From Tildeniella torsiva UHER 1998/13D (GTDB lineage Bacteria; Cyanobacteriota; Cyanobacteriia; Phormidesmidales; Phormidesmidaceae), in NCBI GenBank assembly GCA_019358835.1, contig JAHHIH010000007.1, positions 124,001 through 188,000 of the forward strand: 64,000 nucleotides of DNA. Direction: 5' to 3'. Below, piece after piece: positions 11,370-17,674 of the stretch. Under the pieces are notes generated by a model. The model did not search any database, was not told the DNA's origin, and was given only the letters and a program-made list of their open reading frames with translations. The stretch's first letter is position 1, and each line of letters begins with the position of its first letter. The translations under genes were made by a program, and so were the position numbers.

Positions 11370-13757
11370 CTATTCCCCACCGGCTGGTGGAGGAGCTTCG
11401 AGGGGCGGTGGCGGCGACACAATCGGCGGCGGGGCCGGGGCGGGAGCCGGAGCTACTGGGGCCGGAGCCGGTGGGGCAGTGTTGACCGGCTGAGGAACTG
11501 GTGCCGGGGCTGCCGCTGGGGGATCCTCTGTAATGACAGGGGCTGCCGATTCGGTTGATGCGGGGGGGCTGCTGCTAGAGCTATCGCTAGAAGCGGGTGC
11601 CGGGGCCGATGCGGCTTCACCGCTACTGCTAGAGCTACTCTCTGACCGTTGCGATCGGCGGCTTTCTCCGCCACCCGAGCTAGCCGACTCTGACGACTGC
11701 GACGGGCCGTTTTCAGCAACCACGCGACCGGGCTTTACGGGGCTGAGGGTAATGCTGCCCTCGCGCCCGCCCAGCCGAGGCACGCTGGGAAACTGCTCAA
11801 CGGGAATATCGTCGGTGAGCTTGGCCATGAAGCTGCGCCACACCCCAGCGGCCATACTGCTAGCGCCGCTGGTAGGGGTGTTGTCGTCGTTGCCCATCCA
11901 AACGCCGGCCACCAGCTGGGGAATGTAGCCTACAAACCACAGGTCGCGATACGATTCGGAAGTACCGGTCTTGCCCGCTACTGGCCGCCCCAGGTAGGCA
12001 TTGCTGCCGGTGCCGCCCTCCACCACGCCGCGCAGCATCCAAGTCATAATGGCGGCGCTGTCGGCGTCAATGGCCTGCTCTGACTCGTTAGGGCGCTCAT
12101 AGATCACCTCGCCGCTGCTGTTCAACACCCGGCGAATGCCGTGGGCCGGGCGATGAATACCCTTGTTTGCCAGGGTGCCGTAGGCACTGGTGAGCTCTAG
12201 CAGGTTGACCTCAGAGGTGCCCAGGGCGAGGGAATAGGCGGGCAGCAGCGGCGACTCAATGCCCATGCGCCCGGCCAGTTTCACCACCGGGTCAAAGCCC
12301 ACATCTACCAGCAGCTTGACCGCCACAATATTGACCGAGTTGCGCAGGGCCTGGAGCAAATCCATGCCGCCGCTGTAGTTTTTGCCGTAGTTCTTAGGCT
12401 CATAGCCATCGACCACGTAGCGGGCATCCATGTAATTTTTGTAGGGCGACATGCCGCCTGCGATCGCCGCCGCGTACACAAAGGTCTTAAACGTAGAGCC
12501 GGGCTGTCGCTGGGCCTGGGTCACCCGGTTGAACTGGTTTTCGCTGGTGAAGTCGGTGCCCCCCACCATGGCCTTGATTTCGCCGTTGCGGGGGTCCACC
12601 GCCACCAGCGAGACCTGCCCCACATTCTGCCAACCGCTGTAGCGAGCGACGGCGTCTTCAACGGTTTCTTCAGCCCGGCGCTGCCAAACCACATTGAGTG
12701 TGGTCTCGACGGTTAACCCACCGGCCTCTAGCTGATCGGGGGGCAGCAGCGCCTCTAGCTGCTTTTGAATATAGATAGTGAAATAGGGAAACTCGCTGTA
12801 GAGAAACTTGGGCTGATTAGGGGTGACCGCCACCTCCGTCGTGATCGCTTCTTCTGCCTCGACCCCGCTAATAACGTCGGTGGACAGCATGCGGCGAATG
12901 ACGCGATCGCGCTGGCTGCGGGCGGCCTCGGCATTGACCGTGGGCGAATACAGGCTAGGGGCTGGGGCCATACCGGCAATCATCGCCGACTCAGCTACGG
13001 TGAGCTGATCGATGGTTTTGCCGAAGTACACCCAGGAAGCGTCGGCTACGCCGTAGGCTCCAGAGCCCAGGTAGACCAGATTGAGGTAGCGCTCAATAAT
13101 CTGCTCTTTGGTGAGGCTGTCTTCGAGCTTGGTGGCCATCATGGCCTCTTTGATCTTGCGCTGAAAGCTGCGCTCCTGGTCGAGAAAGACGATGCGGGCG
13201 AGCTGCTGGGTAATGGTGCTGGCCCCTTCTACCAGCTCGCGGTATTGCACGTTAGCCCAAGCGGCGCGGGCAATACCTCGGTAGTCAACGCCGTTATGCT
13301 CGTAGAATCGCTGGTCTTCGGAGGCAATAAATGCCGCCACCAGGTGCTCGGGCATGGCCTCATAGTTAATGGTTTCGCGGGTGGCGGGGCCAAGCTTCTG
13401 CAAAATTACCCCATCCGCCGACACCATGGTGATGGTGCCGTCGCGCTGGTAGGTTAGGGCCTGATTGGGGTCGGGTAGATTTGCACTGGTGGCTTCTATG
13501 ACCCGGTAGGCGCGAGTACCGCCTCCCGCAATGCCTGCCCCAGCCAGCAACACCACCCAAAATAAGGGGCGCAAAAACAGAGGCCGATAGCTGCGCGGCA
13601 ACTCCGGCTTTTCGCCCGACGGCCCAGGCTGGGGCTCTACTCGCTGGGGAGAGACCCGCGCACCGTTGACCATGCTGGCCCCAGATCTGCTCCGTCCTGA
13701 GGGGCGCGACGATTTCCTCGAAGGAAACGACAGCCGGGTTAACCAAGATCGAGCCAT
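11370..13757 (-). CDS. Class A penicillin-binding protein (transglycosylase/transpeptidase)
   Basis: Bifunctional peptidoglycan synthase of the PBP1a family, about 795 residues from the ATG at 13757 (AAAGG 10 bases upstream; a GTG at 13775 is the alternative). It has a basic cytoplasmic N-terminus and one membrane helix (about residues 65-85). The GT51 glycosyltransferase domain holds the catalytic Glu in SEDQRFYEHNGVDYRG, then GASTITQQLAR and LNLVYLGSGAYGV. The transpeptidase domain has all three motifs: STFK (PGSTFKTFVYA), SVN (LRNSVNIVA) and KTGT (VAGKTGTSES). The last ~130 residues are a low-complexity Ser/Pro/Ala tail, longer than usual. Confidence 0.93.
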   Translation of the reverse strand: MARSWLTRLSFPSRKSSRPSGRSRSGASMVNGARVSPQRVEPQPGPSGEKPELPRSYRPLFLRPLFWVVLLAGAGIAGGGTRAYRVIEATSANLPDPNQALTYQRDGTITMVSADGVILQKLGPATRETINYEAMPEHLVAAFIASEDQRFYEHNGVDYRGIARAAWANVQYRELVEGASTITQQLARIVFLDQERSFQRKIKEAMMATKLEDSLTKEQIIERYLNLVYLGSGAYGVADASWVYFGKTIDQLTVAESAMIAGMAPAPSLYSPTVNAEAARSQRDRVIRRMLSTDVISGVEAEEAITTEVAVTPNQPKFLYSEFPYFTIYIQKQLEALLPPDQLEAGGLTVETTLNVVWQRRAEETVEDAVARYSGWQNVGQVSLVAVDPRNGEIKAMVGGTDFTSENQFNRVTQAQRQPGSTFKTFVYAAAIAGGMSPYKNYMDARYVVDGYEPKNYGKNYSGGMDLLQALRNSVNIVAVKLLVDVGFDPVVKLAGRMGIESPLLPAYSLALGTSEVNLLELTSAYGTLANKGIHRPAHGIRRVLNSSGEVIYERPNESEQAIDADSAAIMTWMLRGVVEGGTGSNAYLGRPVAGKTGTSESYRDLWFVGYIPQLVAGVWMGNDDNTPTSGASSMAAGVWRSFMAKLTDDIPVEQFPSVPRLGGREGSITLSPVKPGRVVAENGPSQSSESASSGGGESRRSQRSESSSSSSGEAASAPAPASSDSSSSSPPASTESAAPVITEDPPAAAPAPVPQPVNTAPPAPAPVAPAPAPAPPPIVSPPPPLEAPPPAGGE

Positions 13758-13841
13758 AGCAGCGTTGCCTTTCACATCCTCTGTGAACTGTATGGGGTTT
13801 CGGCCATTTCTTCAAGGGTACAGCCGCGATCGCGCGGATCC

Positions 13842-14867
13842 CTAAAGTGCCGTGTGCCCCAGTGCCAGCCCTGTTACCAGCATACCTAACACCAGAAAAG
13901 GCTGGGCGCTGGCCTGGTACTTGACATCGTTACCCAGGGGATCGCGCAGAAAGTACATATCCTGAAAGGTGATCTGGGGAATGATCAGCAGCACCAGCAG
14001 CACGGCATAGAGGTTCTGGTGAATGGCCATCAGGTAGGCGGCGACGCCCCCCTGAAAAATGTCAATCGCCAGCACGCAGATCCAGGCGGCGGTGGTAACG
14101 CCAAACATCACCGGCAGCGACTTGAGGCCCATCTGGCGATCGCCCTCCACGCTCTTAAAGTCGTTGACCACCGCAATGCCCAAGCCCGCCAGGCTGTAGA
14201 ACAGGGTGAGCACCACAATCTTCCAGGTGAGGGTGCCAAACAGGGCGTGGCCCGCCCACCAGGGCAGCGCAATGTAGCTGGCCCCCAGGGCGTAGTTGCC
14301 GAGCCAGCCATTCTGCTTGAGCTTCAGCGGTGGGGCGGAGTAGATGTACGACACAAACGAGCCGCCCAGGGCTAGGGCGGTGATAATCGGGAAGCTGTGC
14401 CCGGCCCAGCGATCGAGGCTGAAGGCAATGGCGATACCGGCCACCAGCAGCACCAGAATTTGGGTCACCACTTGGGGAATGGTGATCGCCCCCGAGGGGA
14501 TGGGCCGATAGGGCTCGTTGATGGCGTCGATGTCGCGATCGTAGAAGTCGTTGAGGGTTTGGGTGTAGCCCGTCAGCAGCGGCCCCGCAAACAGCATGCA
14601 GGCGGCGGCGATCAGTACGTACTCTAAACTCCAGCGGTAGTTGCCGGAGGAGGCCGCCCCACACACCACGCCCCAAATCAGCGGAATCCAGGTGATCGGC
14701 TTCATCAGCTGAAGGCGAATCTTCCAAATCGAGGTCTCGCCCGACTTGGCACCCTTCATGCCTAAAAGCTGGCGGGCGGCGTTGCCCTGGGCCTCGGGGG
14801 CAATTTCAGCAGCAGGGGTTTGGTCTAGAGCGTCGTTGACCGGAGTGGAGGACGGTGGTTCAGCCAT
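13842..14867 (-). CDS. chlG: Chlorophyll a synthase ChlG
   Basis: UbiA-superfamily membrane prenyltransferase that esterifies chlorophyllide a with phytyl or geranylgeranyl diphosphate, the last step of chlorophyll a synthesis. It has 341 residues and about nine membrane helices. The first Asp-rich motif NDFYDRDIDAINEPYRPIPS is perfect, and the second is DFKSVEGDRQMGLKSLPV. Both bind Mg-diphosphate. The ATG at 14867 was chosen. In Synechocystis ChlG works with Ycf39, HliD and YidC, which is of interest because two hli genes lie elsewhere in this window. The upstream neighbour on the same strand is a Get3-type ATPase, 187 bases away. Confidence 0.95.
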   Translation of the reverse strand: MAEPPSSTPVNDALDQTPAAEIAPEAQGNAARQLLGMKGAKSGETSIWKIRLQLMKPITWIPLIWGVVCGAASSGNYRWSLEYVLIAAACMLFAGPLLTGYTQTLNDFYDRDIDAINEPYRPIPSGAITIPQVVTQILVLLVAGIAIAFSLDRWAGHSFPIITALALGGSFVSYIYSAPPLKLKQNGWLGNYALGASYIALPWWAGHALFGTLTWKIVVLTLFYSLAGLGIAVVNDFKSVEGDRQMGLKSLPVMFGVTTAAWICVLAIDIFQGGVAAYLMAIHQNLYAVLLVLLIIPQITFQDMYFLRDPLGNDVKYQASAQPFLVLGMLVTGLALGHTAL

Positions 14868-15053: not shown

Positions 15054-16154
15054 CTAACTAAAGGAAATCACCAGATGCTGATCTTGAAACTTGGCCCCGG
15101 CCACCGCTTTGCCCTGGAGGGCGGGGGGCAGCAGCAGGTTGCGCCGCTGATCGCCCGCTTCAATGGTGACCTCGGGGCCGTACTGGGTGAGCTTGACCTG
15201 GGTTTTGTCAAAGCTGGGTAAGAAGAGCCGCACGGTCTTCGTCGCTGCATCCACGGTTACTGGGCGCGGGGCCGCTGCCGCCCACTGGGCGGGGTCGGGC
15301 AAAGCTTCCACCGCTGCATCCCATCCCTGATCGATGACTGAGGGCAGCGGCACCTGGGGCAGGGGCGCAAAGGCGTGGATCTGCTCGGCATCGAGCACGC
15401 CGTGGTTGACCAAAACACCGCCCACCGTCAGCCCAATCTGCTGGGCGCTGCCCCACAGGTAGCGGGCCGTCGCCACCGACCCTGCCGTGGGCGTGGTAAC
15501 TAAGAATGCGGCCATGCGGCTGGGGTTAGTGACCGCCTGGCGACCCTCTTCCAGCTGCGATCGCACCTGTCCCGTAGGCTGATCCAGCACATCCCCCGAC
15601 CAGTCAACTGCCAGCACCGCCGAGGCCATGGGCTGCAAAAACGGCGAGATCACCCGACCCACATCGGACTGCTGAAACACGCCGCGAAACCGCCGCAGGT
15701 ACCAGTCGAGAATTTCCGGCATGCCCAGCATGCGCAGGGTGGCCAGCGCCTCGCTGCCGTCGTAGATGATGACGTCGTAGCGATCGCTGCCGTCGAGCTG
15801 CCGCAGGGTATTCAGCGCCAGGGCGCTATCGATGCCCGGCATCACCCCCAGCTCTTGACCATAGACCGCCTTGAGAAAGGGCGTCCGCAGGTACTGTGAC
15901 TCCAGCGCTTTGACTTCGTCCCAGCTTTTCTCCAGCAGGGCTGCGGTTTGAAACTGCATGGCCCACAGGTTGGGCTCTAGCTCTTGGGGCTCCACGCTCA
16001 GGGCCAGGCCCAGCAGCAGCGCCGGAGCTGGCGTTACATCCTGAATGGCCAGCAGCACCCGCTGCCCGGCCCGCGCCCGCTGTTTTGCGGCGGCGATCGC
16101 CACAGTCGTGCTGCCGCTGCCGCCCTTACCCAAATACGTGAGAATTAATGCCAT
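15054..16154 (-). CDS. Get3/ArsA-family ATPase with C-terminal HSP20-like domain (Get3d-type)
   Basis: P-loop NTPase of the SIMIBI class, 366 residues. The N-terminal Walker A reads YLGKGGSGSTTVAIAAAKQ. The signature Lys of the deviant P-loop is kept, but the second Lys expected in GKGGVGKT is replaced by Ser. A hydrophobic central region resembles the client-binding part of Get3. The last ~80 residues (VKLTQYGPEVTIEAG... to HLVISFS) look like the alpha-crystallin/HSP20 domain found in some ArsA/Get3 proteins, including the cyanobacterial and plant Get3d group. Get3 proteins target tail-anchored membrane proteins; the function of this type is not settled. It is likely co-transcribed with chlG. 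Confidence 0.78.
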   Translation of the reverse strand: MALILTYLGKGGSGSTTVAIAAAKQRARAGQRVLLAIQDVTPAPALLLGLALSVEPQELEPNLWAMQFQTAALLEKSWDEVKALESQYLRTPFLKAVYGQELGVMPGIDSALALNTLRQLDGSDRYDVIIYDGSEALATLRMLGMPEILDWYLRRFRGVFQQSDVGRVISPFLQPMASAVLAVDWSGDVLDQPTGQVRSQLEEGRQAVTNPSRMAAFLVTTPTAGSVATARYLWGSAQQIGLTVGGVLVNHGVLDAEQIHAFAPLPQVPLPSVIDQGWDAAVEALPDPAQWAAAAPRPVTVDAATKTVRLFLPSFDKTQVKLTQYGPEVTIEAGDQRRNLLLPPALQGKAVAGAKFQDQHLVISFS

Positions 16155-16439
16155 AGAAAAACTGGGCCTACGCGTTGGTCAGGTCATCGCTGCTCGAAGC
16201 ATCCCTAGAAACACACGGGGGCGACCTCGCCCCGCTTCTCTATGCCCAGGGAAACTTATGCCGATCATCTCGGGGACTGGACAGCCGTGGAATCACTCCA
16301 AAAGAGGAGATTTGCTGAGCACCCTCCTCTCTTTTGCTATTGCCGACCCATTGATCTGCTCCCCTAACTAATTTAAAAGGGCAGAGAGAGGCATCCCAGA
16401 TCTTAGCAGCTATAAAAATGGCCTCAGCGAGGCCGTCCG
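16155..16439. other. Intergenic region between the DUF2862 gene and the Get3-like gene
   Basis: 285 bases. Apart from a minus-strand terminator at its right end I see no gene; a plus-strand open frame here is antisense to the Get3 start and looks spurious. The promoter of the Get3-chlG unit must lie in this region. Confidence 0.5.
16411..16434 (-). terminator. Intrinsic terminator of the DUF2862 gene
   Basis: Read on the minus strand: GGCCTC, loop GCT, GAGGCC (16420-16434), then ATTTTTATA. It lies 6 bases after the stop of the DUF2862 gene. Confidence 0.75.
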
Positions 16440-16640
16440 CTACTGAATGACAGACAGCTCATCTTCAAAGAACCAGGTGGTGTAGCGATCTTCAAACTCC
16501 ACCACGACGCCTACGCCGCTGCCGTCCACCATTTTGAACTGGCTTACAACGCCGCGCTTGCCGAGGTAACCTGCCAAATCCTTCGAAACCCGATCGCGTA
16601 GCCGGGATACTTTCACCTTTTGGCCAATCTCTAAAGCCAT
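16440..16640 (-). CDS. DUF2862 small protein
   Basis: 66 residues from the ATG at 16640, which gives the usual N-terminus MALEIGQKVKVSRLRDRV. In-frame starts at 16664 and 16682 would add up to 14 residues. The sequence (KVKVSRLRD... GKRGVV... DGSGVGVVVEFEDR... TWFFEDEL) suggests a small SH3-like beta-barrel. It matches the cyanobacterial DUF2862 family, of unknown function; the relative Ssl0353 in Synechocystis lies next to ndhS, from memory. It is transcribed alone, with its own terminator. Confidence 0.78.
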   Translation of the reverse strand: MALEIGQKVKVSRLRDRVSKDLAGYLGKRGVVSQFKMVDGSGVGVVVEFEDRYTTWFFEDELSVIQ

Positions 16641-16769
16641 GTCTGCTAAGGGCTCCAACTGCATGTCCAACGATAAAACCAAGAGACAGTGTATCAGCGT
16701 CTTGGCCCCTGGTGATCGTCATAATCCTCTATTGTGGAGCGGGGGAAGGGTTTAATTTGCTGTCGGGGG

Positions 16770-16903: not shown

Positions 16904-17674
16904 ATGCTGGCGAAACGGATTGTGCCCTGCCTAGATGTCAAGGCTGGCCGGGTGGTGAAAGGGGTCAATTTTGTCGATCTGCGCGATGCGGGCGATCCGG
17001 TGGAGCTGGCCCAGGCCTACAACCAGGCCGGGGCCGATGAGCTGGTGTTTCTGGATATCACCGCTACCCACGAAGACCGCGACATTATCTATGACGTGGT
17101 GTACCGCACGGCGGAGCAAGTGTTTATTCCTCTCACGGTGGGCGGTGGCGTGCAATCCTTAGAAACCATTAAAAAATTGTTACGGGCCGGGGCCGACAAG
17201 GTCAGCATTAACTCGGCGGCGGTCAAGCGGCCAGAGCTAATTAAAGAGGCCAGCGATCGCTTTGGAGCGCAGTGTATTGTGGTGGCGATCGATGCCCGCC
17301 GCCGCCCTGACCCTGGCAACCCAGGCTGGGATGTCTACGTGCGCGGCGGTCGCGAGAATACTGGGCTTGACGCCTTAGCCTGGGCAGAGGAAGTCGTCAA
17401 CCAAGGGGCGGGCGAGTTGCTGGTCACCAGCATGGATGCCGACGGTACCCAGGCGGGCTACGATCTCGACCTCACCCGCGCCATTGCCGATCGCGTGCCA
17501 GTGCCAGTGATTGCCTCCGGCGGGGCTGGCAACTGCGACCACATTCACCAGGCCCTCACCGAGGGGAAGGCTGAGGCGGCGCTGTTGGCTTCACTGCTGC
17601 ACTACGGGCAGCTAACGGTGCGGCAGGTAAAGGAGCATTTGCGCGATCGCCAAGTACCCGTACGCCTGACCTAG
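16904..17674 (+). CDS. hisF: Imidazole glycerol phosphate synthase cyclase subunit HisF
   Basis: (beta-alpha)8-barrel cyclase that joins HisH-derived ammonia to PRFAR, giving imidazole glycerol phosphate and AICAR in histidine synthesis. The 256-residue length is standard. The catalytic Asp near residue 11 is in [19 protein letters not shown], and the second, near residue 130, is in [10 protein letters not shown]. Phosphate-binding loops appear as [10 protein letters not shown] and [10 protein letters not shown]. The ATG has a strong AAGGAG upstream at 16891-16896. No other his gene is nearby, as is common in cyanobacteria where his genes are scattered. Confidence 0.97.

Follow-up and report, generated by a model that had tools for sequence, protein, structure and literature searches.

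A cyanobacterial Get3d with serine at the Walker A position, encoded between petP and chlG in Tildeniella torsiva

The locus and its Get3d protein

The window, which is the whole stretch of 64,000 nucleotides of Tildeniella torsiva DNA analyzed here, carries on its reverse strand an open reading frame located between petP and chlG (Table 1). Two further neighbors, a divergent His_biosynth gene, which we take to be hisF, and a gene for a penicillin-binding protein (pbp), served as gene-order controls.

Table 1. Positions of genes and sequence features at the get3d locus of the window
Feature	Position	Strand	Basis
get3d (NosAFP-type Get3d)	15054..16154	-	366 aa + stop, ATG start, open throughout
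P-loop GKGGSGST, residues 9-16	16107..16130	-	Read from translated ORF and codons
Ser15 (AGC)	16110-16112	-	Codon read
Signature Lys10 (AAG)	16125-16127	-	Codon read
Alpha-crystallin-like domain (ArsA_HSP20), residues 307-365	15060..15236	-	Pfam
chlG, chlorophyll synthase, downstream of get3d	13842..14867	-	TIGR02056, 1.2e-180
petP, cytochrome b6f subunit, upstream of get3d	16440..16664	-	NF050003, 105.5 bits, cut-off 65
Terminator-like hairpin and T-run just 3' of petP	16420..16434	-	Pattern match only
hisF-like gene (His_biosynth), divergent; gene-order control	16904..17674	+	PF00977, 290 bits
pbp, penicillin-binding protein, transglycosylase and transpeptidase; gene-order control	11370..13775	-	PF00912, PF00905

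This ORF encodes a cyanobacterial Get3d orthologue. The NCBIfam equivalog NF050088 (Get3_fold_NosAFP) spans residues 1-365 with 553 bits against a cut-off of 325 (2.4e-166). Pfam places ArsA_ATPase at residues 6-259 (103.7 bits, cut-off 24.3) and ArsA_HSP20 at residues 307-365 (58.9 bits, cut-off 22.5), the latter being the alpha-crystallin-like C terminus already noticed in an earlier note on this DNA. The closest solved structures are NosGet3d (All4481) of Nostoc sp. PCC 7120 (3igf/8egk; full-length match, 1.8e-125) and Arabidopsis AtGet3d (At1g26090; 8elf; 6.3e-48), while archaeal and eukaryotic Get3 structures score much below these two. An AlphaFold2 model built on a 62-sequence alignment had a mean pLDDT of 85.8 and a pTM of 0.84, with residues 174-192 in the helical part falling below a pLDDT of 50, which leaves the model uncertain as to a putative hydrophobic client chamber, and strands were modeled from 307 to 365, matching the alpha-crystallin domain. 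In Foldseek, the best match of this model was 8egk_B (TM-score 0.93 on the query, 53% identity), followed by the other Nos chains and then by 8elf (TM 0.78-0.79). The NF050088 match, the nearest solved structures and the agreement of the modeled fold with 8egk thus place the protein in the Get3d group, to which the earlier note had assigned it.

The window protein shares with NosGet3d the alpha-crystallin domain and a residue other than lysine at the Walker A position, and with AtGet3d the domain order and the fold. It differs from NosGet3d, which has an arginine and a switch I glutamate where the window protein has Ser15 and the aligned Asp39, and from the chloroplast-targeted AtGet3d, which retains the Walker A lysine. 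Eukaryotic Get3/TRC40 has the Get3 fold as well, but the yeast and human proteins found by Foldseek are only 16-23% identical to the window protein. Furthermore, Get3/TRC40 has its own ATP-driven cycle and a CXXC zinc site, whereas the translated window sequence contains no cysteine and hence no CXXC motif. Get3d, its alpha-crystallin domain and the replacement of the lysine by arginine have all been published, and the gene as such is ordinary.

Because of its Pfam label, ArsA_ATPase, the protein could be taken for an arsenite-pump ATPase (ArsA). However, it consists of one ATPase unit followed by an alpha-crystallin domain, and a 640-aa tandem ArsA-like ORF is found elsewhere in the genome (G000 C34:182206-183942), separate from both Get3d-type genes. 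The ArsA pump model of NCBIfam requires 650 bits, of which the protein reached 27.8, and we rejected this identity, to which we give hardly any credence.

The second Get3d-type gene is a paralogue whose copy in the T. torsiva genome (contig C28, 393 aa) also combines an ArsA_ATPase unit with an ArsA_HSP20 C terminus. Unlike the window protein with its GKGGSGST, it has the P-loop GKGGVGKT, found in 20/20 readable copies (21 copies, one of them truncated), and with about 190 bits it remains below the NF050088 cut-off. We infer that this paralogue is likely of the Sll0086 type.

Repeated damage to the ATP site and conservation of the remaining protein

Residues 9-17 of the window Get3d read GKGGSGSTT. 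The signature lysine of GKGG is present (Lys10), and the lysine of the canonical GK[ST] is absent, its place being taken by Ser15. The AAG and AGC codons bear out the deviant Walker A motif that the earlier note had described in these terms.

To compare this position with that of get3d in other genomes, we read another 158 loci (120 + 38), with flanks of up to ~5 kb where the contig allowed; outside the own family, mostly one locus per genus was sampled. Together with L257, L258, L270 and the window, these loci make up a set of 162 sequences. The own genus gave a match in 25/26 genomes; 24 of its sequences, including the window, are in the set, and the 25th, a shortened copy in G338 (L063), was read apart from it. 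Across the 162 sequences, position 15 is Arg in 95, Ser in 21, Cys and Lys in 16 each, Gln in 4, Thr in 3, Glu in 2, Pro and Ile in 1 each and a gap in 3. Neither Lys nor Arg is thus found in 49 of the 160 readable sequences (24 from the own genus and 25 from outside), two rows ending before position 15. Arg also leads after down-weighting near-identical sequences (82.1 of 129.1, compared with 15.0 for Lys). In the own genus (n = 25), we found 21 Ser, 2 Thr, 1 Cys and 1 deletion, and Lys or Arg in none. To the question, left by the earlier note, whether the serine is family-wide, the answer is hence divided: it holds across the genus, with variants, but the family mostly has arginine. Several Arg15 sequences carry a lysine at position 17, while inspection by eye revealed no lysine in the window's genus that would compensate for the lost one. 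Ser15 is not a sequencing slip, since the 24 other genus sequences also lack Lys/Arg15 and the gene is under strong purifying selection (see below).

We then mapped these states on a tree of the 162 sequences from which the P-loop columns had been dropped. "Lys/Arg" versus "neither" at position 15 requires at least 10 changes (20 in a three-state version) and the signature lysine 7, counts that are undirected and come from a quick tree with 59/159 inner branches open and some long rows. The 24 own-genus sequences form a single clade (98*). The whole P-loop pattern is lost, for example, in L104-L107, L109, L110, L112, L163, L220, L222-L224 and L226, and broken P-loops are also present in diatom-endosymbiont lineages and one free-living relative (LGKGDSHQS, LGQGSSEPA). 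All nine relatives tested against NF050088 exceeded its cut-off, among them seven with a broken P-loop (L107, L188, L163, L095, L223, L104 and L258) and two with an intact one.

Of the 366 positions, position 15 comes 211th in degree of conservation. Among the multi-residue regions compared, the alpha-crystallin region is conserved best (mean entropy 0.94 bits versus 1.54 overall), and across 62 sequences many residues are invariant there and in the helical part. The P-loop as a whole is also conserved above average (1.08 versus 1.54 bits), and Lys or Arg15 is found in 111/160 sequences and the signature lysine in 142/162, which indicates continuing selection on this site in the majority of lineages. 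Overall, the P-loop has been damaged repeatedly in this family while the rest of the protein was kept. We found no mention of repeated P-loop loss in Get3d in the literature searched, which covered few subscription papers.

Such erosion could mean that the gene is decaying, its catalytic function having become redundant with the intact paralogue; the loss of get3d in family f2 and the partly relaxed selection in endosymbionts, both described below, would fit. However, in nine own-genus pairs (366 codons), dN/dS was 0.011-0.110 for get3d, 0.014-0.074 for chlG and 0.093-0.251 for petP. In the own genus, get3d is therefore maintained, and we rejected a decaying gene there. The many invariant residues also argue against decay, as does the breadth of the family: the NF050088 cut-off is exceeded in 311/388 genomes, and 63 of the 77 misses belong to f2. 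We thus regard decay as very unlikely.

NosGet3d, with its arginine at the Walker A position, is a slow ATPase (kcat 0.28/min, KM about 353 uM), and AtGet3d is a slow ATPase too; both bind a tail-anchor segment, and both lack the A-loop and the Asn of strand beta7 (PMC10248533). The window protein might likewise be a working slow ATPase, for which the signature lysine, the switch Asp residues and Mg would be enough and in which the serine would merely lower affinity or rate. This would be in agreement with the retention of Lys10, Asp39 and Asp132 and with the activity of NosGet3d despite its Arg and switch I Glu. However, arginine keeps the positive charge and serine does not, and the drift to Thr, Cys and a deletion in the own genus is unexpected for a required catalytic contact. 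A slow ATPase is therefore possible, but we doubt it.

The get3d neighborhood and genomes lacking get3d

We scored petP and chlG as linked when they shared the strand of get3d and lay no more than 500 nt away from it, and the controls hisF and pbp under looser limits. Among the 158 loci (window excluded), petP was linked upstream of get3d in 137, not linked in 19 and undecidable in 2; for chlG downstream, the corresponding counts were 91, 61 and 6. The controls gave 77/70/11 (hisF) and 70/75/13 (pbp). Since the own family supplies 45/158 loci, counts by family are fairer: at least one linked locus was found in 36/41 families for petP, 25/40 for chlG, 14/39 for hisF and 12/40 for pbp. Without a distance limit and with the window included, petP lies upstream in 141/159 and chlG downstream in 100/159. 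petP is thus a tighter neighbor of get3d than chlG. A chlG linkage exclusive to this strain, along with a protein outside Get3d, was what the earlier note had named as speaking against its proposal; neither applies, since the linkage recurs in other genomes and the protein is a Get3d.

Given the hairpin after petP, petP and get3d may form separate transcripts in the window's strain. A pattern scan found a terminator-like site in the petP-get3d gap of 8/24 own-genus loci and 8/111 others. The petP-get3d-chlG order did not come up in the literature searched, which covered few subscription papers; chlG, petP and synteny are absent from the main text of the Get3d paper (Barlow et al. 2023), which was the only source found for slr1794 and all4481, and no paper was found for NosAFP.

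In family f2 (1.6-3.7 Mb), no match exceeded the NF050088 cut-off. Among the matches listed, 27 f2 genomes comprise 7 with a weak, sub-threshold match and 20 without any match, and the 36 no-match genomes beyond these 27 tally exactly with the 63 f2 rows. All 63 f2 genomes have a PetP match, so that a co-loss of Get3d and PetP was rejected. petP lies directly before chlG in 18/18 f2 genomes tested. At the 8/8 f2 junctions read, hisF, petP and chlG follow the window's order, with pbp seen in 7/8 on these short stretches, and get3d gave no hit there with an E value below 0.3. As the f2 junctions keep the window's order minus get3d, the hisF / petP-get3d-chlG-pbp neighborhood is old, with get3d cleanly missing from f2.

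Eight f2 genomes (G001, G026, G041, G078, G090, G100, G110 and G160) have 2-3 PetP-like matches, only one of them beside chlG. In G143, a single-contig genome of 3.76 Mb from family f32, PsaA/B and Photo_RC genes are present, chlG and petP remain below thresholds, and the paralogue is the only NF050088 match; this gap may reflect a deletion of the cluster or a missing assembly segment, and we left G143 out of the evidence. The T. torsiva genome itself contains, outside the window, two complete psaA/psaB-like pairs (G000 C6:86166-90631 and C32:248809-253403), which we take to be a possible far-red-light photoacclimation gene set.

We also analyzed four diatom-endosymbiont genomes, namely, those of the symbionts of Epithemia turgida (EtSB; G354, NZ_AP012549.1), Rhopalodia gibberula (RgSB; G384, NZ_AP018341.1) and E. 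clementina (EcSB) as well as uoEpiScrs1, taken as an endosymbiont from its name alone. EtSB and RgSB are both described as non-photosynthetic, with all ten chlorophyll-a genes dysfunctional in EtSB and no working bciB in RgSB, in which dispensable genes can remain open for long (PMC5638926). EcSB has lost its photosystems and kept its thylakoids, and respiratory electron transport is kept by diazoplasts (PMC11070190). Published work describes three of the four, EtSB, RgSB and EcSB, as free of photosystems. In EtSB and RgSB, we found remnants or nothing in place of intact PsaA/PsaB and Photo_RC genes, and an intact cytochrome f. petP and an open get3d of 365 aa are present in all four genomes. 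EtSB has a chlG pseudogene beside its open get3d; in RgSB, EcSB and uoEpiScrs1, chlG is open.

Among EtSB, RgSB and EcSB, dN/dS was 0.17-0.27 for get3d, 0.27-0.33 for chlG (the EtSB pairs resting on 157 codons), 0.10-0.20 for petP and 0.05-0.18 for three control neighbors. Two uoEpiScrs1 pairs gave 0.20-0.21, 0.16-0.17, 0.12-0.13 and 0.04-0.08, respectively, and a free-living pair, whose ratios are rough because its dS is >1, gave 0.08, 0.04, 0.06 and 0.04-0.09. In the endosymbionts, get3d is thus near chlG and above the three control neighbors, and selection on it is partly relaxed, which makes its retention weak evidence of need. This retention nevertheless speaks against a purely chlorophyll-related role, without proving a need for Get3d there.

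These data bear on the idea that Get3d is a delivery factor dedicated to the ChlG complex, bringing, for example, Hlips or YidC-inserted proteins to ChlG, which is close to the role specific to the chlorophyll-synthase complex that the earlier note had proposed. ChlG forms complexes with Hlips, Ycf39 and YidC (PMC6175206), chlG directly follows get3d in at least one locus of 25/40 families, and the two genes are 186 nt apart in the window, with nothing resembling a terminator between them in the pattern scan. However, petP is the more faithful neighbor, and the linkage of the hisF and pbp controls in 14/39 and 12/40 families shows that the chlG linkage stems in part from inherited gene order and to that extent is no sign of shared function. 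In addition, f2 genomes keep petP-chlG without get3d, EtSB retains an open get3d beside a broken chlG, and a text search of PMC6175206 returned no occurrence of ATPase, ArsA, Get3 or anion. These observations weaken the proposal of a ChlG-specific role, and we consider a dedicated ChlG factor unlikely.

A putative role for Get3d and its implications

The reading that we favor is that the window's Get3d is, on balance, probably a chaperone for membrane segments that makes weak or no use of ATP and is not dedicated to chlorophyll synthase. It would act as a soluble holdase, shielding the hydrophobic transmembrane segments of small thylakoid membrane proteins that are inserted post-translationally. 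Because of the petP linkage and the retention of get3d in symbionts without photosystems, small cytochrome b6f subunits or SecE would be the first candidate clients. These clients may be passed from Get3d to a YidC/Alb3-type insertase; the chloroplast relative GET3B binds ALB3 and ALB4 (PMC12040988). ATP hydrolysis would be weak or dispensable in this genus, where ATP binding may have been lost, and truly ATP-driven work could be carried by the intact-motif paralogue in a putative division of labor. Several observations weigh against this reading: the ATP site is conserved in most lineages, the window protein itself retains Lys10, Asp39 and Asp132, selection on get3d is partly relaxed in the endosymbionts, f2 genomes manage without the gene, and the hairpin lies between petP and get3d in this strain.

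More tentatively, we propose that cyanobacterial Get3d in general could be an emerging pseudo-ATPase, that is, an ATP-independent holdase for thylakoid segments (cytochrome b6f, respiratory) that would derive from an ATP-driven Get3, would have lost its site repeatedly and would leave ATP work to the paralogue. This broader proposal is well short of probable in our view; if true, it would mean that a targeting factor of the Get3 fold runs without a nucleotide cycle.

Two published statements on Get3d are qualified by these findings. Most Get3d sequences of the sampled cyanobacteria carry arginine at the Walker A position, so that this residue is no exception. Furthermore, get3d is open in symbionts without photosystems, so that its role possibly extends beyond photosynthesis, selection there being partly relaxed. 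The natural alleles of the family, with Lys, Arg, Ser, Thr, Cys or no P-loop, many of them in one conserved locus, make the ATP need of Get3d testable by allele swaps, and the linkage to petP offers a concrete place to look for Get3d clients.
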